From: Frateuria edaphi
GTDB lineage: Bacteria > Pseudomonadota > Gammaproteobacteria > Xanthomonadales > Rhodanobacteraceae
Length of the DNA: 64,000 bases
Direction of reading: 5' to 3'
Assembly: GCF_021117405.1 (NCBI RefSeq)
Contig: NZ_CP088251.1
Span: 1,612,001-1,676,000 of the forward strand
Position numbers and translations under genes: made by a program. The first letter of the stretch is position 1. Each line of letters starts with the position of its first letter. This document shows positions 5,593 to 64,000 of this stretch, piece by piece. The notes below the pieces were generated by a model. The model did not search any database and was not told the DNA's origin. It saw only the letters and a list, made by a program, of their open reading frames with translations.

Positions 5593-8421
5593 TTACAGCG
5601 CGTAGGTGAAGCCGACCAGATACTGCCGGCCGAACCACTGCAGCGTGCCCGTCTGCGCCTCGTTGCCGAAGTAGGTGCGGGTCGGTTCGTCGGTCAGGTT
5701 GTTCACCTGGAACAGTACGCTCAGGCCGTTCTTGAACGCATAGGAGGCCTGGTAGTCGACCACCGTCTCCGGCGCGTAGTAGACGATCTGCGTGTCGACG
5801 GCCATCTGGTTGGACACGAACGCGCTGCGATGGCGGACCGACAGGCGGGTGTCGAAGCCCTGGTAGCCATAGAACAGCGTGCCGTTGATCACGCGCGGCG
5901 AAAGGCCGGGCAGGCCCATCTTCTGCGGTGCGCCGCCGAGGGTCGAGGTCGAGGTGACCTGGCTCTGCGAGTACGAATAGCTGCCCGTGAAGCCCAGGCC
6001 CGACCAGGCGCCTGGCAGGAAGTTGAACACGCGCGAGTAGGAAAGCTCCACGCCACGCACGAAGCCGCCCTTGTCGTTGTTCACGGCCGTCTGGTACTGG
6101 CCGTTCTCGTACGGCAGGCCCGTCGCCGGGTTGATCGGCACCTGGATGCCGTTGCCCGCGAAGTCGTACGGGTTGATCGTGTAGTCCTCGATGAACGAGT
6201 CGATGTGCTTGAAGAACAGCGCCGCGGCGAACGCGCCGCTCGAGTCGGGCGAGTAGTGCTCGAACGAGAGGTCGTACTGCTTGGCGTAGAACGGATCGAG
6301 GAACGGGCTGGTGTTGCCCCACATGTTGTAGGTGTTGCCGTCGATCCACGAACCCGAGCCGGTCAGCAGCTTGTTGAGCGGCGGACGGGACATCACCTTG
6401 GCCGCCGCGAAACGCAACTGGTTGGACTCGTCGAAATGCCAGTTGAGATTCAGCGAGGGCAGGTAGTCGGTGTAGGACTTGCCGCGGCGCACGTGGATGT
6501 AGTCGGTGCTCGTGACGCCCAGTTCGTCGGTGATCGGCTCGCCCTGGCCGCTGCCGATCTGCTGCAGGCCGTTGGAGTACTGCGAGGTGTGCACCACGCG
6601 CACGCCGACGTTGCCGGTGAGGTTGTGGTTGGCGACGTTGGTGTCGATGTCGGCCATCACGTAGCCGGAGGAGACGTGCTCGTCGACCTCCGCGCTCTGG
6701 ATCATCGTCCAGTTCGCATTCCAGTTCTTGGTCGGCGTCGGCGTGATGCCATTGGCGGCAAGCACCGCCAGCGTGTCGATCGACAGGAAGCACGGGAACG
6801 AGGAGAGATTGCCCTCGAAGCAGACCTTGTGCGCGTTGGACGGATCGAGCGCCAGCGGCGGCTGCCCGGCCGGGTACTGGCCAAAGTCGTTGCCGTACTC
6901 GAACGCGCTGCGGTCGGCGTTGTAGGTACGGCGCGAATAGCGCACGCCCATTTCCAGCGCTGACAGGAAACTGTTGTCCACGAAGTCGTAACGCACGTCG
7001 GTGCGGAACGCCTTGCTCTCGTCATCGTAGACGTACGGGTACACGCCCACCTTGCCCAGGCCCATGCGGGACAGGTCGGTGTAGTCGTGGTTGAAGCCGA
7101 CCGTGCCGGGCTGCATGCCGTTCAATTGGTAGTCGACCACTTCATCGTTGGCCGCCACCGGGTTGGTCGCACTCATGTCGTTGTAGAGCAGGCCCCAGGA
7201 CACGCCGTTGTTGAAGTCGCTCTTGGCGTGCGAGTAGGAGACGTCCGAACTGATCGTCCAGCCGCCGAGCATCCACTTTGCGTTCAGGCCGCCGGACAGC
7301 ACGCTGTTCTTGAGCGAGTTGTCGTCGTTGGTGGTCTGCACGACGAAGTAGGGATTGGCCGGATCCTGGGTGATGGTTCCGCCGGTCACCGCGCCGTTGG
7401 GCAGGATCACTGGGTTGGTGATGATGCCGTTGTTGAGCGTCTTGACGCGGAAGCCGTGGCCTTCGCTGGTGGTGTCGAACTTCGAATAGAAGCCGTCCGC
7501 CTTCAGCTCGAAGCTGTCGCTCGGGCGCCACTGGAGCACGGCCATGTAGCCGTTGCGGCGGAGCATGCCGCCGTTCTGCTGCAGCTCGAAGCCCTCGCTT
7601 GTGTACTCGTTGGTGCCGTCGCCGTTGACGTCCTTGGTGCCGTTGAAGGCCAGGCCGTTGAACTGGTCGGCCACGTGCGGCTGGTAGAGCGAGGCGAGGC
7701 CGGCGGCCAGGCCCAGCGTGTCGTGCAGGAACTTGCCCTGGAACGAAGCGCTCACGCGATAGCCGCGGGCATTGGCGCCCTCGGTCTCGCTGGCGCGGTC
7801 GTTGTAGCTGCCACGCACGTTGAGCACGCCGGAGTATTGCTTGGCGTTGTCCAGCGGGTTGGAGGTCTGCATCTCCACCGTGCCGGCGACGCCGCCTTCG
7901 ATCAGCGAGGCCTTGGGCGACTTGTAGATCGCCGCCTGGCTGATCAGCTCCGACGGGTACTGGTCGAACTGGGTCACGCGGCTGCCGCTGGTGGCGGCCT
8001 GTTCGCGGCCATCGAGCGTGGTCTCGACGAAATCGCCGGACAGGCCGCGGATGTTGATCGCGCTCGATTCGCCGTCGATGCGTTCGGCGGCCACGCCGGG
8101 CAGGCGGGTCAGGGCATCGGAAATCGAAACGTCGGGCAAGCCGCCGATGTCCGCGGCAGTCACGACTTCCTTGATGGTATCGGCATCGCGCTTGACGTCG
8201 ATGGAGGTTTCCACGCTCTTGCGGAAGCCCGTGACGGTGACACCCGTCAGTTCGGTGGCCTGCACTTTGGCTTTCTTCTGCCTGGCCTTCTGCGTGCTGG
8301 TGCTATCGGTCGATGGCGTAGCCTGGTCGCCCGTGTCCTGCACGCCAGCCGCATGGGCGGCAGTGGCCGCGCACAGCGCCGATGCCAGCGCAAAGGCAAG
8401 CACATTGCGTTTGAGTATCAC
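5593..8421 (-). CDS. TonB-dependent receptor for maltodextrins (inferred substrate)
   Basis: This is a 942-residue outer-membrane receptor that would import a large ligand with TonB energy. It has a signal peptide (MILKRNVLAFALASALCAATAAHA), a TonB-box-like stretch (TELTGVTVTGF), a plug (IKEVVTAADIGGLPDVSISDALTRLPGVAAERIDGE) and a long beta-barrel with the usual terminal aromatic strand (QYLVGFTYAL). The start is a GTG at 8421 with GGGGGAG seven bases upstream; an in-frame ATG at 8502 lacks such a site and would add a charged, non-signal N-terminus. Operator B lies 131 nt upstream. A maltooligosaccharide ligand is inferred from the flanking GH13 and GH31 genes. The plug style matches the Caulobacter/Xanthomonas MalA-like receptor family. 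Confidence 0.93.
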   Translation of the reverse strand: MILKRNVLAFALASALCAATAAHAAGVQDTGDQATPSTDSTSTQKARQKKAKVQATELTGVTVTGFRKSVETSIDVKRDADTIKEVVTAADIGGLPDVSISDALTRLPGVAAERIDGESSAINIRGLSGDFVETTLDGREQAATSGSRVTQFDQYPSELISQAAIYKSPKASLIEGGVAGTVEMQTSNPLDNAKQYSGVLNVRGSYNDRASETEGANARGYRVSASFQGKFLHDTLGLAAGLASLYQPHVADQFNGLAFNGTKDVNGDGTNEYTSEGFELQQNGGMLRRNGYMAVLQWRPSDSFELKADGFYSKFDTTSEGHGFRVKTLNNGIITNPVILPNGAVTGGTITQDPANPYFVVQTTNDDNSLKNSVLSGGLNAKWMLGGWTISSDVSYSHAKSDFNNGVSWGLLYNDMSATNPVAANDEVVDYQLNGMQPGTVGFNHDYTDLSRMGLGKVGVYPYVYDDESKAFRTDVRYDFVDNSFLSALEMGVRYSRRTYNADRSAFEYGNDFGQYPAGQPPLALDPSNAHKVCFEGNLSSFPCFLSIDTLAVLAANGITPTPTKNWNANWTMIQSAEVDEHVSSGYVMADIDTNVANHNLTGNVGVRVVHTSQYSNGLQQIGSGQGEPITDELGVTSTDYIHVRRGKSYTDYLPSLNLNWHFDESNQLRFAAAKVMSRPPLNKLLTGSGSWIDGNTYNMWGNTSPFLDPFYAKQYDLSFEHYSPDSSGAFAAALFFKHIDSFIEDYTINPYDFAGNGIQVPINPATGLPYENGQYQTAVNNDKGGFVRGVELSYSRVFNFLPGAWSGLGFTGSYSYSQSQVTSTSTLGGAPQKMGLPGLSPRVINGTLFYGYQGFDTRLSVRHRSAFVSNQMAVDTQIVYYAPETVVDYQASYAFKNGLSVLFQVNNLTDEPTRTYFGNEAQTGTLQWFGRQYLVGFTYAL

Positions 8422-54412: not shown

Positions 54413-55399
54413 ATGCCGGTCATGCTCGGTCAATCCAGTGCGCTGATGGCGGTGCGCGCGCAATTGCAGCGATATGCCGGCTGCGATGTCCAAGTGCTGA
54501 TCGAAGGGGAGACCGGCACCGGCAAGGAGCTGGCTGCCCGCGAGATCCACTATGCAAGCCGCCGGCGCGACCGCCCGTTCGTGCCCGTCAATTGCGGTGC
54601 GATCCCCGATGGCCTGGTCGAAAACGAATTGTTCGGCCACGAGCGTGGCGCCTATACCGACGCGAGGTGTGCACAGATCGGCCTCGTCGATCGCGCGCGC
54701 GGCGGCACCCTTTTCCTGGATGAGGTGGACGCGCTGTCCAGCAAGGCGCAGGTGATCCTGCTTCGCTTCCTGGAGGACAACGAATACCGCCCCGTCGGAG
54801 GCGGTGCGACACGTCTTGCCGATGTGCGCATCATCGCCGCCACCAACAGTCCGCTGGAGCAGCAGGTGACAGCGGGGCTTTTCCGGCGCGACCTGCACTA
54901 CCGGCTCAACGCGCTTGCGGTGCGGCTGCCGCCGTTGCGCGAACGTTCCGGCGACGTGCTGTTGCTGGCTGAGCATTTCCTCGGCATCGCAGCCGAACGC
55001 GTGGACGGTCCGGTCAAGCGCTGGAGCGGCGTCGCGCTGCAAGCGCTGGTCGCCCACGCATGGCCGGGCAACGTGCGTGAACTCGAGCATGTGGTGCTGC
55101 GCGCCTACATGCGCGCGGACGACATGGTCATCGGCCTGGCTGACCTCGCCGCGGCCGAGTCGGCCTTTGCCGCCATCGATGGTGCGCTGGCCCCCAGCCC
55201 GGGACACGACGAGGCCGGTTTCAGCGTGGCGAAGAGCCACGCCATTCGCGTCTTCGAGCACAGCTATCTGTTGCAGTTGATGCACCGGGCCGGCGGCAAC
55301 GTCAGCATCGCCGCGCGTCTGTCCGGTACCGAACGCCGCCAGTTGGGCAAGCTGCTCAAGAAGCACGGCATCGAAACCAAGCAGTTCCGTTGCCAGTAG
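54413..55399 (+). CDS. Sigma-54-dependent transcriptional activator
   Basis: A 328-residue enhancer-binding protein made only of an AAA+ domain and a C-terminal Fis-type HTH. Walker A is GETGTGKE (32-39), the sigma-54 contact loop is GAYTDA (79-84; GAFTGA in the consensus), Walker B is GGTLFLDEVD, and the HTH lies in AGGNVSIAARLSGTERRQLGKLL. There is no receiver, PAS, GAF or other sensory domain, so activity may be set by expression or by a partner. I chose ATG 54413, with GGGGA upstream. ATG 54335 and a frame from 54293 are alternatives. A sigma-54 promoter starts 134 bp downstream of its stop, directly before the injection-system genes. Confidence 0.88.
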   Translation: MPVMLGQSSALMAVRAQLQRYAGCDVQVLIEGETGTGKELAAREIHYASRRRDRPFVPVNCGAIPDGLVENELFGHERGAYTDARCAQIGLVDRARGGTLFLDEVDALSSKAQVILLRFLEDNEYRPVGGGATRLADVRIIAATNSPLEQQVTAGLFRRDLHYRLNALAVRLPPLRERSGDVLLLAEHFLGIAAERVDGPVKRWSGVALQALVAHAWPGNVRELEHVVLRAYMRADDMVIGLADLAAAESAFAAIDGALAPSPGHDEAGFSVAKSHAIRVFEHSYLLQLMHRAGGNVSIAARLSGTERRQLGKLLKKHGIETKQFRCQ

Positions 55400-55532
55400 C
55401 GGCTCGCCGGCGCGCCCTCCGTCCGGGTTGAAGCCGACCCGCGCCGCGGGCGAACCCGGGTCACCGTTGCCCCGGCATCCTCCGTAGCCCTCCCCGAAAC
55501 CGCACCGCGCGGGTGTTTTCCAACGCCGGCGA

Positions 55533-55547
55533 TGGCATGGGTGTTGC
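55533..55547 (+). promoter_or_regulatory. Sigma-54 promoter of the eCIS operon
   Basis: TGGCATGGGTGTTGC has GG at -24 and GC at -12 with exactly ten bases between, and matches the TGGCAC-N5-TTGC consensus at all but one position. Transcription would begin near 55559, 19 bases before the first gene. It is the only such site I found in the window and is next to a sigma-54 activator. Confidence 0.78.
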
Positions 55548-55577
55548 CTCGTTCCTGCGCAGGCGCGGAGGTGCCGC

Positions 55578-55847
55578 GTGACCGATCGGCTATCTGATGA
55601 CGAGGCAAGCCGACGCGAGGTCGAGTCGGCGGTGCTTGCGTACCTGCACCAACACCCCGAAGCGGCGGACACGCTGGACGGCATCGTGCTGTGGTGGTTG
55701 CCGCGGCAGCGCTACGAAACGTCGCGTGCGCGTATCGGGCGCGTGCTGGATGACCTGGTCGCACGGGGGCAACTGCGATGCGACCGATTGCCTGGGGGCG
55801 CCGTTCTTTACGGACTGCGCCGGGGCGCCGAACCGCCTTTGCACTGA
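55578..55847 (+). CDS. Small winged-helix-like protein of the eCIS operon
   Basis: An 89-residue protein starting at GTG 55578, with GGAGG about seven bases upstream. The pattern VESAVLAYLHQHPEAADTLDGIVLWW...ARIGRVLDDLVARGQLRCDRLPGGAVLYGL, seen in blocks, is that of a winged helix-turn-helix with a final beta wing. It is the first gene after the sigma-54 promoter. Similar small proteins occur before the sheath gene in other eCIS clusters. Regulation or assembly control is inferred. Confidence 0.75.
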   Translation: MTDRLSDDEASRREVESAVLAYLHQHPEAADTLDGIVLWWLPRQRYETSRARIGRVLDDLVARGQLRCDRLPGGAVLYGLRRGAEPPLH

Positions 55848-55871
55848 CCGCCACGATCGAGGAATACAGAC

Positions 55872-57398
55872 ATGCCTTCCACCCTCACTTATCCGGGCGT
55901 CTATATCGAAGAGATCTCCAGCGGCGTGCATACCATCGCCGGCGTGGCGACCTCGATCGCGGCCTTCGCCGGCTGGGCACCCTTCGGCCCGGTGGACCGG
56001 GCCGGGCTGGTGCTGGGATTCGCGGATTTCGCGCGCAAGTACGGCGGCCTCGACAGCCGCAGCGTGCTGGGCCACGCCGTGAACCAGTTCTTCGCCAACG
56101 GCGGGCAACGCGCCTATATCGTGCGGCTGGCCGATGGCGAGGCCGACCTGGCTACGGTCACGCTCGACGGGAAACTGGTGGTGACTGCCAGCAATCCCGG
56201 CCAGTGGGCCAACGACTGCGCGATCGTCATCAAGAAGTCCACCTTCGATGCGACCCGGTTCCGGCTGACGGTCGTCAACTGGAAAGTCGATCCGGCAGGC
56301 AAGGTGATGGAGTCGTTCGACAACCTGTCCATGGACCCTGCCGACGCGCGCTACGTCGTCAGCGTGCTGGCCAGCCAGTCCAGCTACGTCACCGCCGCGC
56401 TCCAGGGCACCCCCGCCACGCCGCCGGCGGACACCTTCCCCGGCGCACCCGGCAACATTCCCGATACGGCCAAGCTTGGCGGGGGCGGTGACGGCGCCGT
56501 TCTTGAACCGAACAAGGCGCCTTTCGAGACCGCGTTGTTGCCGGTGTCGGGCACGGGAGGCCTGTACAACCTCGACCGCATCGACCTGTTCAACCTGCTC
56601 TGCGTGCCCGGACAGACCAACCCCGGCACGATCGCCAGCCTGCAGAAATTCTGTCGTGACCGGCGCGCCTTCCTGATCGCCGACAGCGCGGAAACGGCTT
56701 CGCTCGATACGCTCGAAGACGGTCCCGGCGACATCACCGCCGCCGACGCGATCAACGCGGCGTTCTACTTCCCCTGGGTGATCGCCGCCGACCCGCTGCA
56801 GCAGAATCGTCCCCGCGCGTTCCCGCCCTGCGGCTTCGTGGCGGGGATCTACGCCCGCACCGACGCCACCCGTGGCGTATGGAAGGCGCCGGCCGGAAGC
56901 GAGGCCAGCCTCAGCGGCGCACTCGGCGTCAGCACCACGCTGACCAACGACGAAAACGGCGTGCTCAACCCGCTGGCGATCAACTGCATCCGCCACTTCC
57001 CCGTGTACGGCACGGTGGTGTGGGGCGCGCGCACCTTGCAAGGCAATGACGAGCGCGGGTCGGAATGGAAGTACATCCCGGTACGGCGCACCGCGCTGTT
57101 CATCGAGGAGAGCCTGTACCGCGGCACGCAGTGGGTGGTGTTCGAGCCGAACGATGAGCCGCTGTGGTCGCAGATCCGCCTCAACGTGGGCGCGTTCATG
57201 CAGGACCTGTTCCGCCAGGGCGCATTCCAGGGCAGCACCCCGCAGGAGGCGTACTTCGTCAAGTGCGACAAGGAAACCACCACGCAGAACGACATCAACC
57301 TGGGCGTGGTGAACATCGTGGTCGGCTTCGCGCCGCTCAAACCCGCCGAGTTCGTGGTCATCCAGCTGCAGCAGATGGCCGGCCAGCTCCAGACCTGA
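55872..57398 (+). CDS. eCIS contractile tail sheath
   Basis: A 508-residue phage-tail sheath protein. The N-terminus YPGVYIEEISSGVHTIAGVATSIAAFAGWAPFGP (as blocks) is the classic sheath start. The conserved C-terminal domain has AINCIRHFPVYGTVVWGARTL, IEESLYRGTQWVVFEPNDEPLWSQIRLNVGAFM and CDKETTTQNDINLGVVNIVVGFAPLKPAEFVV (as blocks). Sheath subunits contract to drive the inner tube through a target membrane. Only one sheath gene is visible, as in many simpler eCIS loci. An AGGAA ribosome-binding site is upstream. Confidence 0.95.
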   Translation: MPSTLTYPGVYIEEISSGVHTIAGVATSIAAFAGWAPFGPVDRAGLVLGFADFARKYGGLDSRSVLGHAVNQFFANGGQRAYIVRLADGEADLATVTLDGKLVVTASNPGQWANDCAIVIKKSTFDATRFRLTVVNWKVDPAGKVMESFDNLSMDPADARYVVSVLASQSSYVTAALQGTPATPPADTFPGAPGNIPDTAKLGGGGDGAVLEPNKAPFETALLPVSGTGGLYNLDRIDLFNLLCVPGQTNPGTIASLQKFCRDRRAFLIADSAETASLDTLEDGPGDITAADAINAAFYFPWVIAADPLQQNRPRAFPPCGFVAGIYARTDATRGVWKAPAGSEASLSGALGVSTTLTNDENGVLNPLAINCIRHFPVYGTVVWGARTLQGNDERGSEWKYIPVRRTALFIEESLYRGTQWVVFEPNDEPLWSQIRLNVGAFMQDLFRQGAFQGSTPQEAYFVKCDKETTTQNDINLGVVNIVVGFAPLKPAEFVVIQLQQMAGQLQT

Positions 57399-57408
57399 GG
57401 AGAAAGTC

Positions 57409-57936
57409 ATGGCTGAGTTCAGCGTCAATGCGCAGCGCTTCGATCCGTACAAGAACTTCAAGTTCCGGGTGAAGTGGGACGGGCGCTACGTGGCCGGGGT
57501 CAGCAAGGTTTCCGGCCTCAAGCGCACCACCGAGGTGGTCAAGCACCGCGAGGGCGGCGATCCCAGCAGCAGCCGCAAGTCGCCGGGCCGCAGCGAGTAC
57601 GAGGCGATCACCATCGAGCGTGGCGTCACCCATGACCTGGAGTTCGAGCGCTGGGCGAACAAGGTGTGGAACTTCGGCGCCGGCCTGGGCGCGGAGGTGT
57701 CGCTGAAGGACTTCCGCAAGAACCTCATCCTGGAGGTCTACAACGAGGCCGGCCAGCTCGCCATCGCCTACAAGCTCTATCGCTGCTGGGTGTCCGAATA
57801 CCAGGCGCTGCCGGACCTGGACGCCAACGCCAACGCGGTGGCGATCCAGCACATCAAGCTCGAGAACGAGGGCTGGGAGCGCGACGTCGGCGTGGTCGAG
57901 CCAACCGAACCCAGCTTTGCCGTGCCGCCCGGCTAG
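57409..57936 (+). CDS. eCIS tail tube protein (T4 gp19-like)
   Basis: A 175-residue tube protein of the T4 gp19/Afp1-Pvc1 type. The markers are FDPYKNFKFRVKWDGRYVAGVSKVSGLKRTTEV, the EYEAITIERGVTHDLEFERWANKVW segment and IQHIKLENEGWERD (as blocks). Hexamers stack into the inner tube that holds effectors. It follows the sheath by ten bases with a GAGGAG site. Confidence 0.95.
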   Translation: MAEFSVNAQRFDPYKNFKFRVKWDGRYVAGVSKVSGLKRTTEVVKHREGGDPSSSRKSPGRSEYEAITIERGVTHDLEFERWANKVWNFGAGLGAEVSLKDFRKNLILEVYNEAGQLAIAYKLYRCWVSEYQALPDLDANANAVAIQHIKLENEGWERDVGVVEPTEPSFAVPPG

Positions 57937-57941
57937 CGATC

Positions 57942-58676
57942 ATGCGCACGCCCACGCCCGCGCAACTGCTGCACGTCTGGGAGCGCGGTGGCGATGCGCC
58001 CGCGGCCGCCTGCTGCCTGGCATTGCTGGCTGTCAGTTGTGATGACTGCACGGACGACTCGCTCGCGCACCTGCCACTGGGCCGGCGCGATGCGCTGTTG
58101 CTGGAACTGCGCGAGCGCCTGTTCGGTGCGCAGGTCTGCGGCGTGGCGATCTGCCCGGCCTGCGCGACCACGGTGGAAGCGAATTTCCGCTGCGACGACC
58201 TGCTGACCGTCCAGCCGATCCTCCCCGAAGCGGTGCTCGAACACTTCTCGCCGGCGCACGGCCTGCGGGTGCGCTTCCGGCTGCCCGACAGCAACGACCT
58301 GATCGCGTTGCAGGCCTGCGGCGATGCCGGTGCGGCGCGGCGGATGCTGCTCGACCGCTGCGTCATCGCGGTGCAGGGCAGGCGAGGGCAATCGCATGGC
58401 TTGCCGGCCGATCTGCAGGCGGAAATCGGGGGGGCCATGGCGGCCGCCGATCCGCAGGCCGATCTGCAGCTCGCGCTGGCCTGCCCGCAGTGCGCGCATC
58501 GCTGGCAGCCGGTGTTCGATATCGCCCGTTTCCTATGGCAGGAACTGCATGCCTGGGCGCTGCGCACGCTGCGCGACGTCGACACGCTGGCGCACGCCTA
58601 TCACTGGGCCGAGGCCGACATCCTGGCGTTGAGCCCGCGCCGCCGACAGGCGTATCTGGAGTTGTGCCAGCCATGA
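57942..58676 (+). CDS. T4-baseplate-like zinc-ribbon protein of the eCIS
   Basis: A 244-residue protein that fits the T4-baseplate (gp26-like) family found after the tube gene in eCIS loci. It has two Cys pairs, CPACATTVEANFRC and CPQCAHRW, that probably form a zinc ribbon. N- and C-terminal helices such as LLHVWERGGDAPAAACCLALL and WHAEADILALSPRRRQAYLELC (approximate blocks) surround it. It starts five bases after the tube gene and overlaps the next gene by ATGA. A baseplate or tube-adaptor role is inferred. Confidence 0.82.
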   Translation: MRTPTPAQLLHVWERGGDAPAAACCLALLAVSCDDCTDDSLAHLPLGRRDALLLELRERLFGAQVCGVAICPACATTVEANFRCDDLLTVQPILPEAVLEHFSPAHGLRVRFRLPDSNDLIALQACGDAGAARRMLLDRCVIAVQGRRGQSHGLPADLQAEIGGAMAAADPQADLQLALACPQCAHRWQPVFDIARFLWQELHAWALRTLRDVDTLAHAYHWAEADILALSPRRRQAYLELCQP

Positions 58677-59422
58677 CCGACTTCCTCGACCGGCTGGCCA
58701 CCCGCGCGCTCGGCGGCGAAGGACTGCTGCTGCCGCGGTTGCCGTCGTTGTTCGAGCCGCAGGGCGTGGCGGTCATGCCGCCCATGGGCCAGATGCACGG
58801 GGAGCCGGGGCGGCGCGACGTGGTCCCGGCAGGTATCGAGGCCGCCCCGGTCGCCCGCGAACGCAGATCCGCGCCTTCCCATCCGGTGTCCGGGAGCGCC
58901 ATCGCGGCCGCGCCCATACCCGCAGTGGGGGCTCCGGCGCTGGAACCGTCGCCTCGACCGTCTTCCATCGAACCACCGCCGGCAACCGTTGCCGTCATTG
59001 AGCGACGCCCTTACCCGGCCGAGGAGCAGCCGAAGGAACCCACGCCACACCGGAATGCTCCCGCAGCGCCGCCGCAGGCACGCGCTCGCGAAGCGCACGC
59101 CGTTTCCGTCGACCCCATTGCCCCACCGCGACCGCAGCCGCGGCGAGGCAGCTTGCTTCCGCCCACATCGCCGGTCTTCGCCGCGCCGCGTGCCGGAGCG
59201 CCGGTGCAACCACGCGGCTCCCGTTTCGACGCCGCGCGTTCGCGCCCGGAGCTGGCTGACAGCGGGCGCGGCGGTGCAAGCGAGCCGGTCATCCACGTCA
59301 GCATCGGCCGGCTGGAAGTACGCGCCTCGCCCGCTGCGCCCGCATCCCGGCCTCGCCGCGACGAGCCGCGACCGGGCAGCCTCGACGACTACCTGCGCCA
59401 GCGCGGCAAGGCCTCGCCATGA
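58673..59422 (+). CDS. Proline-rich eCIS protein with IGRLEVRA motif
   Basis: A 249-residue protein. A short conserved start (MTDFLDRLATRALGGEGLLLPRLPSLFEP) precedes a long Pro/Ala/Arg-rich disordered middle, and a conserved end carries PVIHVSIGRLEVRA and PGSLDDYLRQRGK. The same end motif occurs in small proteins of other injection-system clusters, where its function is unknown. It overlaps genes on both sides by ATGA, so it is made in step with baseplate components. Confidence 0.78.
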   Translation: MTDFLDRLATRALGGEGLLLPRLPSLFEPQGVAVMPPMGQMHGEPGRRDVVPAGIEAAPVARERRSAPSHPVSGSAIAAAPIPAVGAPALEPSPRPSSIEPPPATVAVIERRPYPAEEQPKEPTPHRNAPAAPPQARAREAHAVSVDPIAPPRPQPRRGSLLPPTSPVFAAPRAGAPVQPRGSRFDAARSRPELADSGRGGASEPVIHVSIGRLEVRASPAAPASRPRRDEPRPGSLDDYLRQRGKASP

Positions 59423-60654
59423 GCAGCGTGCTGGCCATCGCCGCGACCACCCGCACGCTGCGCAACCTGCTGCTGGCGCAGATGCCGATGCTGGACGCGG
59501 ACCTCGGCGACCTGGAAGTCACGCTGCAGCCACCGGACACGGCGCGCAAGGGCATCAGCAAGGCGCAGCTCAACCTGTTCCTTTACCAGGTGGTCCACAA
59601 CGCCGCGTGGCGCAACCTCGACATGCCCGGGCAGGTGCGTCCCGGCGAAAGCGCGCCGCCGGCGCTGCCGCTGACCCTGCATTACCTGCTCACTGCCTGG
59701 GGCCGGGGCGAGAACGACAATGATGCGACCAGCCATCGGGTGCTTGCCGCCGCCATGAGCACGTTGCACGACCGCCCCGTGCTGGACGGCAACGACATCC
59801 GCAATGCGCTGCCTGACAACGACCTGGCCGACCAGGTCGAGCGCGTGCGCATCACGCCGCTCCCGCAGAGCATCGAGGAGCTGTCCAAGCTATGGACCGC
59901 CTTCCAGACCAACTATCGCGTGTCGTCGGCGTACGAGGCCACCGTGGTGCTGATCGACAGCCACGCCACGGCGCGTGCGCCGCTGCCGGTGCTCAAGCGT
60001 GGGCCGCAGGACCAGGGCGTCACCGCGATCGCTTCGGCCGCGCCCGTGCTGGAAACGCTCGCCTACCCGCGCCCGCAGGTGGCGGCGCGGCTGGGCGAGG
60101 CCATCGTGCTGGGCGGCCGCCAGCTCACCACCGACCATGCGACCGCCCGCTTCAGCAGCCTGCGGCTGGATGCGCCGGTCGATGTCGCACCGCTCGCGGG
60201 CGAGGCCGCCGGAAGCTTGCGCGTGCCACTGGCCAACGATGCCGATGCCGCGGCGCGCTGGGCTCCGGGCATCTACACGGTCGCGCTGCTCGTGCAACCG
60301 ACCGGACTGCCCGCACTGCTCAGCAACGAGCTGCCGCTGGTGCTGGCGCCGATCATCACGGTCAGCCCGCTCGCCGCGCCCGCGGGCGACCTCGCGCTGA
60401 CGCTGACCTGCCTGCCGCGCATCCGCGACGGCCAGCGCGTGCTGTTGCTGTTCGGCGATCGCGCCGTCGCGCCGCAGGCCATCAGCAATCCGGCCGACCT
60501 GCACCAGCCGACCGCACTGACCTTCCAGGTGCCCGCGGTCGGCACCGGACGCTACACGGTGCGCTTGCGCGTGGACGGCGCCGACAGCATCCCGGTCGAT
60601 TTCAGCGGTGCCGTGCCGGCCTTCGCGGCCAGCCAGCAGGTGGTGGTGTCATGA
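59419..60654 (+). CDS. DUF4255/Pvc16-like tail terminator protein
   Basis: A 411-residue protein. The N-terminal DUF4255 domain (LAIAATTRTLRNLLLAQMP, ISKAQLNLFLYQVVHNAAWRNLDMPG, LPLTLHYLLTAWG) is that of Pvc16/Afp16, which caps the far end of the tube-sheath and sets length. The C-terminal half is beta-sandwich-like (IPVDFSGAVPAFA region), probably Ig-type domains. It overlaps the Pro-rich gene and the ATPase gene by ATGA. Confidence 0.9.
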   Translation: MSSVLAIAATTRTLRNLLLAQMPMLDADLGDLEVTLQPPDTARKGISKAQLNLFLYQVVHNAAWRNLDMPGQVRPGESAPPALPLTLHYLLTAWGRGENDNDATSHRVLAAAMSTLHDRPVLDGNDIRNALPDNDLADQVERVRITPLPQSIEELSKLWTAFQTNYRVSSAYEATVVLIDSHATARAPLPVLKRGPQDQGVTAIASAAPVLETLAYPRPQVAARLGEAIVLGGRQLTTDHATARFSSLRLDAPVDVAPLAGEAAGSLRVPLANDADAAARWAPGIYTVALLVQPTGLPALLSNELPLVLAPIITVSPLAAPAGDLALTLTCLPRIRDGQRVLLLFGDRAVAPQAISNPADLHQPTALTFQVPAVGTGRYTVRLRVDGADSIPVDFSGAVPAFAASQQVVVS

Positions 60655-62813
60655 GCGACTACGCGCAATGGCTGAGCGCCAACGACCAGTACCTCGCCGA
60701 TGCGCTGGCGGATATCCGCGCACGGCTGCAACACGCCGCCGAACGGCAGGGCGAGCTGGTCGCGACGAGCGCCGCGCCGGACACGCCCGTGCGGCTGCCG
60801 GCTGCCACCGCCGAACCGGTGGCACGCATGCCCGCGATCGTGCCCGTCGCGCCGAAGCACGCTTCCTGGTTGTCGCGCATGTTCGGTCATCGGTCGCCGG
60901 CGACCGCGCCGCCACCCCAGCCGTCCGCCGGTGCGGCGGAACCACCGGTCACGGACGACGTGGCGCCGCAGGCGAGGACGCCAGGTGCCGAGGGCGCGCA
61001 TACGCCGGCCTTGATGCTGCTCGCCCAGCGCCTCGGCCTGAGCCCGTTCGAGCGCGACCTGCTCCTGCTGTGCGTCGGCATGGAACTGGACACGCGGTTG
61101 CCCGCGTTGTGCGCGCAGGCCCAACGCGATCCGACCAAACCCTGGCCGACCTTCGCGCTGGCCTTCGCGGTGCTCGACCAGCCGAGCTGGGATGCGCTCT
61201 CGCCGGAGCGGCCGCTGCGCTATTGGCGCCTGATCGACATCCACCAGCCCGGCCCGCAGCCACTGATCGGCGCCGCACTAAGCGCCGACGAGCGCGTGGT
61301 CAACTTCGTCAAGGGCATGAATTACCTGGACGACCGCCTGACGCCGTTGCTCACCGCCCTGGTGTCCTGGCCGCTACCGCCGTCACAGCAGGCCGTGGTC
61401 GAGGGCGTCGTCGACGAACTGCGAAAGCCCCCGACGGGCGCGCCATTGCCCGCGGTGCAACTGTTGGGCAGCGACAGCGCCAGCAAGCAGGCCATCGCCC
61501 AGACCATCGCCGCCGCATTCGGCGCGCAGGCGTATCGCTTGCCCGCCGATCTGCTGCCGGCGGCCATTGCCGAACAGGAGACGCTGATCCGGCTCTGGCA
61601 GCGCGAAAGCCAACTGCTGCCCCTTGCGCTCTACGTCGACGCAGCCGACACCGGGCGAGGCGATGCATCGACCACGCAGATCCAGCGCGCGCTCGGGCGC
61701 CTGGGCGGGCTGGTCTTCATCGACACCCGCGAGCCATGGCCGGCCACCGCCAACCTGCTCAGCGTGGACGTCGCCAAACCCACGGCGGTCGAGCAACGCA
61801 CGCTCTGGCAGCAGACCCTGGGCGAGGCAGCCGGCGATCTCCCGCAGCATCTGGCCGGCCATTTCGACTTCGGTCCCGGCAAGATCGAACAGGTCGCGCA
61901 TGCCGCCCGCACCACGGTGGAGAGCGGCCCGGGCGCGATGGCCCACGCGCTGTGGCACGGCGCGCTGTCGCGCACGCGGCCGGCGCTGGACCAGCTTGCG
62001 CAGCGGATCGAACCGAAGGCCGGCTGGGACGACCTGAAACTGCCCGGCAACGAGCGTGCCCTGCTGCGCCAGATCGCCGACCAGGTCGCCCTGCGCAGCA
62101 CCGTCTACGACGACTGGGGCTTCCGCGAGCGCATGAACCGCGGCCTGTCGATCAGCGCGCTGTTCACCGGTGAGAGCGGAACAGGCAAGACCATGGCGGC
62201 CGAGGTGATAGCGCAGGAACTCGGGCTCTCGCTCTATCGCATCGACCTGTCGGCGGTGGTCAGCAAGTACATCGGCGAGACCGAAAAGAACCTGCGCAAG
62301 CTTTTCGACGCGGCAGAGGAGGGCGGTTCGATCCTGTTCTTCGATGAGGCCGACGCCCTGTTCGGCCGCCGCAGCGAGGTCAAGGACAGCCACGACCGCT
62401 ACGCCAACATCGAAGTGAACTATCTGCTGCAGCGGCTCGAATCCTTCCGCGGCCTGGCCATCCTGGCCACCAACATGAAAGGCGCGCTGGACAGCGCCTT
62501 CCTCCGCCGCATCCGCTTCGTGGTCAATTTCCCGTTCCCCGGCATGGCCGAGCGCGAGGCGATCTGGGCTTCGGTGTTCCCGGCGCAGGCCGCCACCTCG
62601 ACGCTGGACGTCGCACGCCTGGCGCGGCTCGCGCTCACCGGCGGCAGCATCCAGGGCATTGCCTTGAACGCGGCATTCATGGCCGCCAGCGCCGGTGTCC
62701 AGATCACCATGCCGATCGTGCTGGAAGCCGCCCGCGCCGAATTCCGCAAGCTGGACAAGCCGGTCAACGAAGCCGACTTCCGCTGGCTGGAAAGCGCCGG
62801 AGGCCGGCCATGA
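60651..62813 (+). CDS. eCIS AAA+ ATPase (Pvc15/Afp15-like)
   Basis: A 720-residue ATPase. The C-terminal AAA+ domain has Walker A GESGTGKT (507-514), Walker B ILFFDEAD (561-568), a sensor-1 Asn in LATNMK and Arg finger candidates R619/R620. The middle contains a second, degenerate AAA-like unit (GSDSASKQ at 273-280 and LALYVDAAD). The N-terminal 120 residues are a Pro/Ala-rich linker. Family members help load or recycle eCIS components, or handle toxin cargo. It overlaps neighbours by ATGA. Confidence 0.92.
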   Translation: MSDYAQWLSANDQYLADALADIRARLQHAAERQGELVATSAAPDTPVRLPAATAEPVARMPAIVPVAPKHASWLSRMFGHRSPATAPPPQPSAGAAEPPVTDDVAPQARTPGAEGAHTPALMLLAQRLGLSPFERDLLLLCVGMELDTRLPALCAQAQRDPTKPWPTFALAFAVLDQPSWDALSPERPLRYWRLIDIHQPGPQPLIGAALSADERVVNFVKGMNYLDDRLTPLLTALVSWPLPPSQQAVVEGVVDELRKPPTGAPLPAVQLLGSDSASKQAIAQTIAAAFGAQAYRLPADLLPAAIAEQETLIRLWQRESQLLPLALYVDAADTGRGDASTTQIQRALGRLGGLVFIDTREPWPATANLLSVDVAKPTAVEQRTLWQQTLGEAAGDLPQHLAGHFDFGPGKIEQVAHAARTTVESGPGAMAHALWHGALSRTRPALDQLAQRIEPKAGWDDLKLPGNERALLRQIADQVALRSTVYDDWGFRERMNRGLSISALFTGESGTGKTMAAEVIAQELGLSLYRIDLSAVVSKYIGETEKNLRKLFDAAEEGGSILFFDEADALFGRRSEVKDSHDRYANIEVNYLLQRLESFRGLAILATNMKGALDSAFLRRIRFVVNFPFPGMAEREAIWASVFPAQAATSTLDVARLARLALTGGSIQGIALNAAFMAASAGVQITMPIVLEAARAEFRKLDKPVNEADFRWLESAGGRP

Positions 62814-63097
62814 ACATCCGGTTGCACATCGAGCGGCTGGTACTGGACGAGTCACTCGTGGCTGGCGAGCGCCCGGCCGCCGTGAGCGAGGCGATCACGC
62901 AGGAGCTGTCCCGACGGCTGGCCGATCCGGACACTGCGCAGGCGTTGCTCGGCCTTGGCAACGCGGCCTCGCGGCAACCGATCGCGCTGCCGCCGCCGTC
63001 GCATCCGGGTGATCGCCTGGGCCGGCGCATCGCCGACGCCGTCCATCAGTCGCTTGTGCCGGCCGGCCCTGGCGATGCCGGAGGACGGCGGCCATGA
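62810..63097 (+). CDS. Small eCIS protein
   Basis: A 95-residue protein (IRLHIERLVLDESLVAGERPAAVSEAITQELSRRL, then a Pro-rich tail, as blocks). Small proteins with this IERLVLD start are common between the ATPase and the DUF4157 gene in eCIS clusters, and no function is known. ATGA overlaps occur on both sides, so it is translated with both neighbours. Confidence 0.78.
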   Translation: MNIRLHIERLVLDESLVAGERPAAVSEAITQELSRRLADPDTAQALLGLGNAASRQPIALPPPSHPGDRLGRRIADAVHQSLVPAGPGDAGGRRP

Positions 63098-64000
63098 AAA
63101 CGGCTTTCAAACCAGCCGCCGGAAGTCCCTCGACGCGCAGTGGCATGACCCTGCAGCGCAAGTGCGCATGCGGTGCCCACCGTCCAGGCGGCGGGGCGTG
63201 CCCCGAGTGCAGCAGGAAGCGCCAGCTTGCTCAGCGCAAAACCTCCAGTCAGGACGGCGGGCGCGACGCGCCCGCGAGCGTGCACGACATCATCGGCTCG
63301 CCCGGACAACCTCTCGGCAGCTCGGCGCGCGCATTCATGGAACCCCGCTTCGGGCACGACCTGAGCCAGGTACGCGTCAACCATCCGGCACCCAACGCGA
63401 CGTCGGCGCTCACGGTGGGTTCGGCGCACGATCCGCTCGAGCGCGAGGCCGATGCCGTGGCCGGCCGCGTCGTCGGGATGTCATCGCCGGATCGCGCAAC
63501 ACGCCTCGACTTTTCCGGGGTGCGCATCCACACCGACGAGGCGGCGGCGGCATCGGCCCGGGAACTGCATGCTCGCGCCTACACGGTCGGCAATCACATC
63601 GCCTTCGACAGCCAGGCCTATGCGCCCGACACCCGGGATGGACGGTTGCTGCTGGCCCACGAGCTCGCCCATACCGTCCAGCAGGCGCAGACCGGCGTGG
63701 CGCTGCAGCGTTTCGTTCCCTGCACGCGCGCCCGGCTGTCCACCGAGGACTGTCCGAAACGGGATCCGGACGAGGACCGCACCACGCGCGCCCAGCCGAT
63801 GATCCTCGAATACGTCACCGCGCCCGAGGCGGGCTTCCTGGTGGCGAACTTCGATATCGACAAGACCACGGTCAAGAGCGACCTCAAGCGCCATCCTCTA
63901 TGGCCTACGCTGGTCAAGGCGATTTCCGAGCCCAAGAGTCAGTGGGAAATCATCGGCCTTTCGGATTGCCACGGCGACGAGCCGCTCAACACCGGCTTGC
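63094..64000 (+). CDS. DUF4157 zinc-protease-like protein, candidate eCIS cargo (3' end missing)
   Basis: 302 residues are visible and the frame is open to the window end. An N-terminal Cys cluster (KCACG...CPEC) is followed by DUF4157 features: RFGHDLSQVRV, DPLEREADAVA, FSGVRIHTDEAAAASARELHA, and the zinc-protease motif HELAH at 189-193 (LLLAHELAHTVQQ). After about residue 235, an OmpA-like region begins (FDIDKTTVKSDLKRHPLWPTLV and IIGLSDCHGDEPLN). DUF4157 proteins are known eCIS-associated cargo or effector candidates. The gene overlaps the previous one by ATGA. Confidence 0.88.
   Translation, partial: MKTAFKPAAGSPSTRSGMTLQRKCACGAHRPGGGACPECSRKRQLAQRKTSSQDGGRDAPASVHDIIGSPGQPLGSSARAFMEPRFGHDLSQVRVNHPAPNATSALTVGSAHDPLEREADAVAGRVVGMSSPDRATRLDFSGVRIHTDEAAAASARELHARAYTVGNHIAFDSQAYAPDTRDGRLLLAHELAHTVQQAQTGVALQRFVPCTRARLSTEDCPKRDPDEDRTTRAQPMILEYVTAPEAGFLVANFDIDKTTVKSDLKRHPLWPTLVKAISEPKSQWEIIGLSDCHGDEPLNTGL

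Follow-up and report, generated by a model that had tools for sequence, protein, structure and literature searches.

Loci encoding headless contractile injection systems (CIS) are a known kind, and the closest described systems to the one treated here are the Afp/PVC machines and the Streptomyces and Roseiflexus clusters. The Streptomyces clusters were assigned to subtype IId, without a conventional fibre or a typical tape measure, and their machines were described as cytoplasmic (PMC10066040); in a second report, Roseiflexus was placed in IId and a cytoplasmic mode of action was proposed (PMC12998442). The regulators noted beside operons of extracellular contractile injection systems (eCIS) by Geller et al. 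2021 (PMC8213781) were GerE/LuxR, BTAD and RfaH, and the word "sigma" occurs 0 times in the main text of that paper. A passage of a review (PMC10598620) states that how some eCIS clusters are regulated remains unclear, "sigma" is absent from two eCIS reviews, and our literature search, outside which most subscription papers lay, found no print linking sigma-54 to eCIS. Here we analysed a stretch of 64,000 nucleotides of Frateuria edaphi (contig NZ_CP088251.1, positions 1,612,001 to 1,676,000; hereafter the window), in which the gene of a sigma-54 activator precedes the genes of such a machine.

Activators of this class bind enhancers as hexamers and remodel the closed sigma-54 complex through adenosine triphosphate (ATP) hydrolysis; VasH-type activators exert sigma-54 control over type VI secretion, and PspF-type activators are sensor-less enhancer-binding proteins. 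The source genome is a 3.77-Mb single contig, and the bacterium is a relative of Rhodanobacter. We consider it very probable, from comparison of related loci, that the window encodes a IId-like CIS under its own sigma-54 switch. A sequence-only reading had inferred sigma-54 regulation from gene adjacency, and the comparative footprints described below support it. The new element is the proposed sigma-54 switch; the kind of machine is already known.

The locus resembles those of Geller et al. 2021 in that a regulator gene adjoins the operon, and it differs in the type of regulator, those named in the main text of that paper not being of the sigma-54 type. The Streptomyces and Roseiflexus IId papers, in the parts available, report no sigma-54 control, whereas here an activator, palindromes, a promoter and an 89-amino-acid (aa) protein precede the sheath gene. 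As in the VasH case, a sigma-54 activator is dedicated to a contractile injection machine, but here it has no sensor domain, comes with the 89-aa partner and stands beside another machine, although a branch of the present family does adjoin type VI genes. With PspF-type proteins it shares an AAA+ core and a helix-turn-helix (HTH) and the absence of an N-terminal sensor, and the PspF family match was below the cut-off; in contrast to PspF it has another target and a GAYTDA loop, and no PspA-like gene was found among the 23 open reading frames (ORFs) scanned.

Activator, putative enhancer palindromes and putative promoter

The following features lie ahead of the sheath gene:
54413 to 55399, + strand: sigma-54 enhancer-binding activator (Pfam Sigma54_activat 1.9e-60, AAA_lid_14 and HTH_8; NCBIfam; alignment; tree)
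55424 to 55441, no strand assigned: putative enhancer palindrome, copy 1, CGGGTTG-N4-CGACCCG, 109 base pairs (bp) upstream of the -24 element
55457 to 55474, no strand assigned: putative enhancer palindrome, copy 2, one mismatch, 76 bp upstream of the -24 element
55533 to 55548, + strand: putative sigma-54 promoter (-24/-12) TGGCATGGGTGTTGCC, 14 of 16 points
55578 to 55847, + strand: 89-aa protein with a GTG start, signature YLxxHPxAADTLxGIVxWWLP in an alignment of 25 members

The activator consists of an AAA+ core and a Fis-type HTH, and an N-terminal sensor domain is absent; control must thus come through its own expression or through a partner. One rpoN and 8 genes of strong activators are found in the 3.77-Mb genome, and the window activator scored 519 bits with the profile, compared with 290-347 bits for the 7 others. 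Relatives in Acidobacteriota, Nitrospirota, Verrucomicrobiota and Thermodesulfobacteriota carry about 140 extra N-terminal residues, which had no Pfam match in the four proteins scanned. The motif GA[FY]TDA was rejected as a family hallmark, since another activator of the same genome shares it and most of the aligned members from other phyla are without it.

The gene of the 89-aa protein, which was missing from the gene list of the sequence-only reading, ends 24 bases ahead of the sheath gene. The protein is undescribed: it had no Pfam or NCBIfam family match, and Y22, H26, P27, D31, G35, W39, W40 and Y78 are invariant in the 25 aligned members (window included). A profile search against PDB gave weak matches only (best eS25, E 0.004), most of them to what we take to be winged helices.

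Among the best 80 of 250 sheath loci, the 89-aa protein was found in 21, a proportion that describes near relatives only, because just these best loci were kept. A -24/-12 site (at least 13 of 16 points) lies at the start of the 89-aa gene in 20 of the 21 loci, compared with 324 of 6300 resampled windows, and an activator of this family (at least 400 bits) is found upstream in 20 of the 21, in 19 on the same strand. In loci without the 89-aa protein, a comparable activator was present in 1 of the 45 with 5 kb of upstream DNA (L046, outside the activator clade described below), and a -24/-12 site in 12 of the 58 with enough DNA, within a larger stretch of 600 bp.

Alignment of the spacer DNA of close relatives, with two rows on the wrong strand (L164 and L166) set aside, revealed the palindrome CGGGTCA-N4-TGACCCG. 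The strict form CGGGTYRNNNNYRMCCCG, fitted to the window, occurs at two places in the 3.77-Mb genome, which are both palindrome copies of the window; a reversed control gave 1 forward and 2 reverse matches. With two mismatches allowed, 36 of 46 loci (repeats of some organisms included) have a palindrome in the 260 bp ahead of the promoter, as opposed to 258 of 4600 resampled. The relaxed pattern YGGGT-N8-ACCCR (at most one mismatch) was found between -83 and -75, counted from the -24 element, in all 15 Pseudomonadota loci that have a promoter, and in 7 of 4500 resampled. The distance from palindrome to -24 element is 78-82 bp in 14 of these 15 loci and 76 bp in the window, and it is kept where the activator gene is kilobases away (L037, L103, L077), on the opposite strand (L056) or not found (L065). 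Across 22 genomes of relatives with the 89-aa protein we counted 27 perfect palindromes, and 13 of these are followed by the 89-aa gene at a distance of 93-140 bp; 8 genomes without the protein held 6, with 12 for the control. Among these 30 genomes, G770 and G817 appear to be duplicates of each other. The palindrome is unusual by its place and not by its number.

For the wider searches of 299 and 398 genomes, genomes were drawn evenly and candidates were scored in part. Of the 299 genomes, drawn from the order, 47 have sheath relatives (E <= 1e-30), though these are not all of the present type. The 89-aa protein was found in 4 of 398 genomes from the phylum, the source genome among them, and in 42 of 197 genomes of the family. 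The best 30 family loci with the 89-aa protein included a promoter of at least 13 points within 200 bp in 26 cases, a sheath match in 24 and an activator in the short flank in 22. The locus is patchy within the genus. The 89-aa protein was found in none of five same-genus genomes (G022, G184, G696, G702, G709), and the two of those included in the sheath search had no sheath match at E <= 1e-30. In L211 (G297:C42), close kin of the window activator and of the 89-aa protein precede further genes; the four of these that were scanned matched no CIS family and gave weak PASTA and coiled-coil matches.

Activator family, type VI secretion and possibly copied units

We built a maximum-likelihood tree of 39 activators, including 19 linked to eCIS (not all of those extracted) and 9 linked to type VI secretion. 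A single clade (support 100/99) contained the 19 eCIS-linked and 9 type VI-linked activators together with 5 others, apart from 4 other activators of the own genome; the tree left out L213 and 3 of the 7 own-genome activators (L118, L122 and L123, the last being one with a GAYTDA loop). The clade covers Pseudomonadota, Acidobacteriota, Verrucomicrobiota, Nitrospirota and Thermodesulfobacteriota, and the Acidobacteriota activators L046 and L048, which stand near sheath genes with no small protein, fell outside it. Inside the clade, the type VI-linked activators and three unassigned ones formed one branch (100/98). Given the root and the long branches, it is uncertain in which direction transfer went.

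Among 20 further stretches, there are 9 in which the pair of activator and 89-aa protein is followed by a type VI sheath gene. In these nine (L194-L197, L204 and L206-L209), the two genes precede a type VI cluster in which TssB and TssC are fused in an ORF of about 700-820 aa; the fusion was checked with Pfam in 2 of 9 (L194 and L195) and taken from alike ORF starts in the other 7, and Hcp was found in L194. No -24/-12 site of at least 14 points was found between activator and sheath gene in the nine stretches (two have a 13), and a perfect relaxed palindrome was present in two, L194 and, far off, L195. Sharing with type VI secretion is thus seen for the proteins and not for the DNA sites. The L194 palindrome, at 7618, is separated by about 330 bp from the type VI-linked activator gene behind it; self-control of that activator is possible.

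We also examined 7 loci with a larger gap between the activator gene and the 89-aa gene for a second unit. Five of them, all Rhodanobacter (L037, L038, L098, L103 and L108), have a palindrome (0-2 mismatches) and a -24/-12 site (14 of 16) at 78-80 bp spacing, directly past the activator gene and ahead of an inserted gene; this is a second unit in four of the five and the sole unit in L098. For L098 and L103, where the longest inserted ORF begins ahead of the promoter, a later start was assumed. The inserted gene of L037 encodes a calpain-family protease (Peptidase_C2, 5.5e-21), the inserted ORFs of L038 and L108 have starts alike to it, and those of L098 and L103 had no family match. L064 has neither an inserted ORF of 100 aa in its gap nor a second promoter. 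The units before inserted genes suggest an enhancer-promoter pair that can be duplicated ahead of accessory genes. In L167 and L168 (G242 and G259), an ORF alike to the calpain-like one occurs with an 89-aa gene, and the short flank contains no activator or sheath gene; this may be a remnant, or a cargo unit that stands by itself.

Several points weigh against the proposed switch. The consensus and range behind the 15 of 15 count were fixed after the alignment, window included, had been seen, so that resampling gives no strict probability; those loci are the window and 14 named ones, with 9 being Rhodanobacter or the window and 6 others, and L064 and L066 are alike. L098 was left out of this count, having no promoter to measure from: this Rhodanobacter locus lacks both promoter and palindrome (two mismatches) before its 89-aa gene, and an ORF stops there right before an incomplete -24 element. 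With L098 included, a palindrome about 80 bp before the promoter is found in 15 of 16 Pseudomonadota loci. In other phyla, none of 6 loci has the palindrome at -83 to -75 (3 of 1800 resampled; L110 has one at -154), so the circuit is fully footprinted in one phylum only. The reversed control gave 52 matches in the 22 genomes that hold 27 palindromes, meaning that palindromes are not commoner genome-wide, and 9 of the 22 genomes have no perfect palindrome before the 89-aa gene. No second unit was found in the 5-kb gap of L077, which holds several ORFs, and 59 of the best 80 sheath loci are without the 89-aa protein. The search models for activator and 89-aa protein were built partly from the same loci. 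A second tree with one own-genome outgroup lowered the clade support to 92/96; it kept 1 of 7 own-genome activators, and the first tree was used for that reason. The L1 loop of the activator is GAYTDA as opposed to GAFTGA. The identical loop is found in L123, which has D at the variable position, with G in the 6 others of the 7 strong own-genome activators; among five aligned family members from other phyla, L088, L094, L101 and L110 have TSA or TGA and L071 has TDA. A winged-helix-like fold of the 89-aa protein is a guess, because the PDB matches are weak. Finally, binding, activation and the role of the 89-aa protein are inferred from sequence.

A standard eCIS locus might by chance lie beside an unrelated sigma-54 activator and run from an ordinary promoter, given that strong activators are not rare in this genome and that most of the best sheath loci are without the small protein. 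We regard this as very improbable: activator, promoter, small protein and sheath recur together across five phyla, and the enhancer spacing is kept where the activator is distant, on the other strand or not found. The palindromes, which in the window sit past the activator stop codon and could fold into a stem of at most seven pairs, might instead act as an RNA hairpin, either an activator terminator or an operon leader. This is hardly credible, as their spacing to the -24 element is near-constant, that to the activator stop varies by kilobases, and no T-run follows the window copies; a terminator was rejected on the spacing to the promoter. The 89-aa protein could be a structural or assembly part of the machine, its gene preceding the sheath gene in eCIS loci, and not a regulator. 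This we consider improbable, for in the nine stretches with a type VI sheath gene the 89-aa gene is close behind the activator gene or overlaps it, and many sheath loci do without the protein. A dedicated sigma-54 switch in front of the machine genes is the reading that we retain, built on the computed gene content, the conserved association, the enhancer-promoter spacing in Pseudomonadota and the single activator clade across phyla.

Machine genes and kind of machine

The machine locus extends from 54413 to about 79640, with accessory genes up to 81289, on the contig extended past 64000 (extended position = L005 position + 62499), and it carries nearly all the genes of a phage-tail-like machine. 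The window contains:
55872 to 57398, + strand: contractile sheath, one gene (Pfam Phage_sheath_1 1.3e-11, Phage_sheath_1C 2.7e-11)
57409 to 57936, + strand: inner tube, gp19 / TIGR02241 (Pfam Phage_T4_gp19 3.7e-45)
57942 to 58676, + strand: T4-baseplate-like protein with CxxC pairs (PF12322 6.3e-10, read from 57933; PHROG 150 baseplate hub 3.9e-7)
58667 to 59422, + strand: proline-rich protein (no Pfam, NCBIfam or PHROGs family match; counterpart in 7 of 9 complete relatives)
59419 to 60654, + strand: Pvc16-like cap/terminator, DUF4255 (Pfam Pvc16_N, PF14065 8.8e-48)
60651 to 62813, + strand: Pvc15-like AAA+ ATPase (PF00004, AAA 1.1e-27; WHD PF22977)
62810 to 63097, + strand: 95-aa protein (no Pfam, NCBIfam or PHROGs family match; counterpart in 6 of 9 complete relatives)
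63094 to 64000, + strand, gene continuing to 64764 (L005:595-2265): DUF4157/eCIS_core protein, candidate cargo (eCIS_core, Aspzincin_M35)

Past the window the extended contig contains:
64935 to 65693: CHAP and peptidoglycan-binding protein (Pfam CHAP)
65921 to 66628: 235-aa protein (no PHROGs match)
66625 to 67284: CIS_tube-like (24.8 bits, just under the cut-off of 27)
67284 to 67604: small hub-like protein (PHROG 46, 2.3e-5)
67597 to 68733: spike candidate, weak (VgrG-related 15.2 bits, cut-off 275; VgrG chain 9rce E 0.079)
68730 to 69236: Phage_base_V, OB spike hub (3.6e-23)
69248 to 69571: PAAR-like, weak (DUF4280 17.8 bits, cut-off 26.3)
69581 to 69940: gp25 (4.8e-20)
69937 to 72777: baseplate wedge (PHROG 219, 3.8e-18)
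72888 to 75872: baseplate J (TIGR02243 1.1e-70, Baseplate_J 2.4e-8)
75869 to 78112: 747-aa protein (no PHROGs match)
78123 to 79640: DUF6519 (1.2e-215)
79664 to 81289: alpha/beta hydrolase-like, weak match

The sequence-only reading had named a sheath, a gp19-like tube, a T4-baseplate-like protein, DUF4255, a Pvc15-like ATPase, a DUF4157 protein and the sigma-54 activator, and Pfam recovered each of them; DUF4255 is presumably the former name of Pvc16_N. The tightly overlapping operon that it described is seen in four-base overlaps that tie the genes at 59419, 60651, 62810 and 63094 to their preceding genes. It had also proposed to look for baseplate and spike genes past 64 kb and regarded a prophage as the alternative. 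The extension contains the OB spike hub, gp25, a baseplate wedge and baseplate J, so that sheath, tube, cap, ATPase, gp25, OB spike hub and baseplate J stand together in one locus. Capsid, terminase and integrase had zero family matches (24 Pfam scans of 23 distinct ORFs, 54413 to 81289), and a tailed prophage was rejected because head genes were unmatched. Neither of the two outcomes that the sequence-only reading had named as refuting, a lack of baseplate and spike genes or the presence of prophage genes, was thus observed. VipA and VipB were likewise unmatched in the 23 ORFs, and the sheath is of the Phage_sheath_1 type, hence not a TssB/TssC sheath. An Rfam scan of the window gave nothing beyond two tRNAs.

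We compared the locus with nine complete relatives, chosen by us among the matches of the 299-genome sheath search. All nine keep the same gene order from sheath through to DUF6519: sheath, tube, T4-baseplate, Pvc16, ATPase, DUF4157 region, CIS_tube, hub, spike candidate and OB, followed by PAAR, gp25, wedge, baseplate J, the 747-aa protein and DUF6519. The DUF4157 protein was present in 9 of 9, with one to three matches each; the CHAP protein was matched in 2 of 9 (further cases in L037 and L076), the hydrolase in 2 of 9 and the 235-aa protein in 1 of 9. Conservation flanking a variable middle points to the middle as the likely cargo region. A candidate cargo here is the DUF4157 protein, whose gene is cut by the window end: eCIS_core matched at 2.7e-32 in the window scan, eCIS_core at 6.3e-30 and Aspzincin_M35 at 4.8e-12 in the extended scan, OmpA-like matches in the middle were weak and below cut-off, and the C-terminal end is an M35-type metallopeptidase.

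Against solved structures, the sheath scored 289 bits with 9ezm, 262 with 8bky, 252 with 8bl4, 181 with Pvc2 and 164 with Afp3. The entry 9ezm is labelled merely "Phage tail sheath protein FI", with no source organism shown, and 8bky alone is tied to a Streptomyces paper (the code occurs once in PMC10066040). This ranking suggests a IId-like machine. As in the Streptomyces and Roseiflexus IId systems, with a Streptomyces sheath among the best solved matches, the operon is compact, and tail fibre (Afp13) and tape measure (Afp14) were unrecognised by family models (Pfam on 23 ORFs, PHROGs and NCBIfam on those scanned). In the Streptomyces report, two tube homologues are described, whereas here there is one gp19-type tube gene, though a CIS_tube-like gene follows. 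With Afp/PVC the locus shares sheath, gp19 tube, gp25, baseplate J, Pvc15-like ATPase and Pvc16 cap; it differs in having a single sheath gene, in the unrecognised Afp13 and Afp14 counterparts and in the greater distance of its sheath from Pvc2 and Afp3.

The mode of action, cytoplasmic or released, we infer here from sequence. A true extracellular, released system of the Afp/PVC kind, aimed at other cells, would fit the DUF4157 protein with its M35 peptidase end, and the CHAP protein could aid particle release. It is possible and on the unlikely side, given that 8bky and 8bl4 are the second- and third-best sheaths, the former from a lineage with machines reported or proposed as cytoplasmic, that no fibre was recognised in the 23 ORFs, and that CHAP is found in just 2 of the 9 complete relatives. 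We therefore prefer the label IId-like, in view of the sheath ranking and of the cytoplasmic mode reported for Streptomyces and proposed for Roseiflexus, and leave "extracellular" unproven. Of the eCIS assignment in the sequence-only reading, the headless injection-machine operon is supported and the word extracellular is not. The same reading knew of no described example from this genus-level group in exactly this form; one paper, a soil-suppression study, contains both "eCIS" and "Rhodanobacter".

Two sheath alleles occur on one backbone, one in the window and L037-L039 and the other in L076, L092, L098, L103, L108 and L115. The sheaths of the window and of L115 agree at 170 of 393 aligned residues over their first 400 and at 98 of 108 over their last 108, and their backbone remains close (tube 91%, Pvc16 82%, ATPase 72%). 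Most of the sheath gene may have been replaced on a common backbone; sheaths further off (L040, L044) likewise show good conservation of the end. Past the injection locus (extended numbering, L006), inovirus-like genes lie on the minus strand at 82965-88294, with a Zot-domain ATPase and Inovirus Coat protein B, and a Septu-type anti-phage pair is found at 90967-93287 (PtuA 1.4e-72, PtuB 1.3e-31).

A proposed switch for the machine

In the mechanism that we propose, the sensor-less activator (54413-55399) would bind the two palindromes at 55424-55441 and 55457-55474, and DNA looping would bring it to sigma-54 RNA polymerase parked at 55533-55548, where it would spend ATP to open the promoter. 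The opened promoter would turn on the operon, with the 89-aa protein first, followed by sheath, tube, baseplate, ATPase and DUF4157 cargo. The activator being needed for opening, the machine would stay off as long as the activator is neither made nor released. The 89-aa protein, as the first product of the promoter, may then act back on the activator. It is most likely the partner of the activator, for which it is the natural candidate because it is kept with it even beside type VI secretion genes, and it probably serves as a feedback brake or as a co-regulator in place of the missing sensor domain.

A wider proposal, tentative and rather unlikely as a whole, is that activator and 89-aa protein make up one controller in two parts, which governs contractile injection machines in general. 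This controller would have arisen with cell-internal CIS, spread over five phyla and been taken over by type VI systems with fused TssB-TssC. It would recruit cargo by copying the enhancer-promoter unit, for example before the Rhodanobacter calpain-like protease gene, and the small protein would sense the state of the machine, such as free sheath or tube subunits, replacing a sensor domain.

How eCIS are switched on is largely an open question, and this locus offers an activator, candidate binding sites, a putative promoter and a candidate partner protein in a conserved, testable form. The enhancer-promoter unit may flag co-regulated cargo genes and would thus give a way to look for effectors. 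Finally, eCIS and type VI secretion are connected through the activator family.

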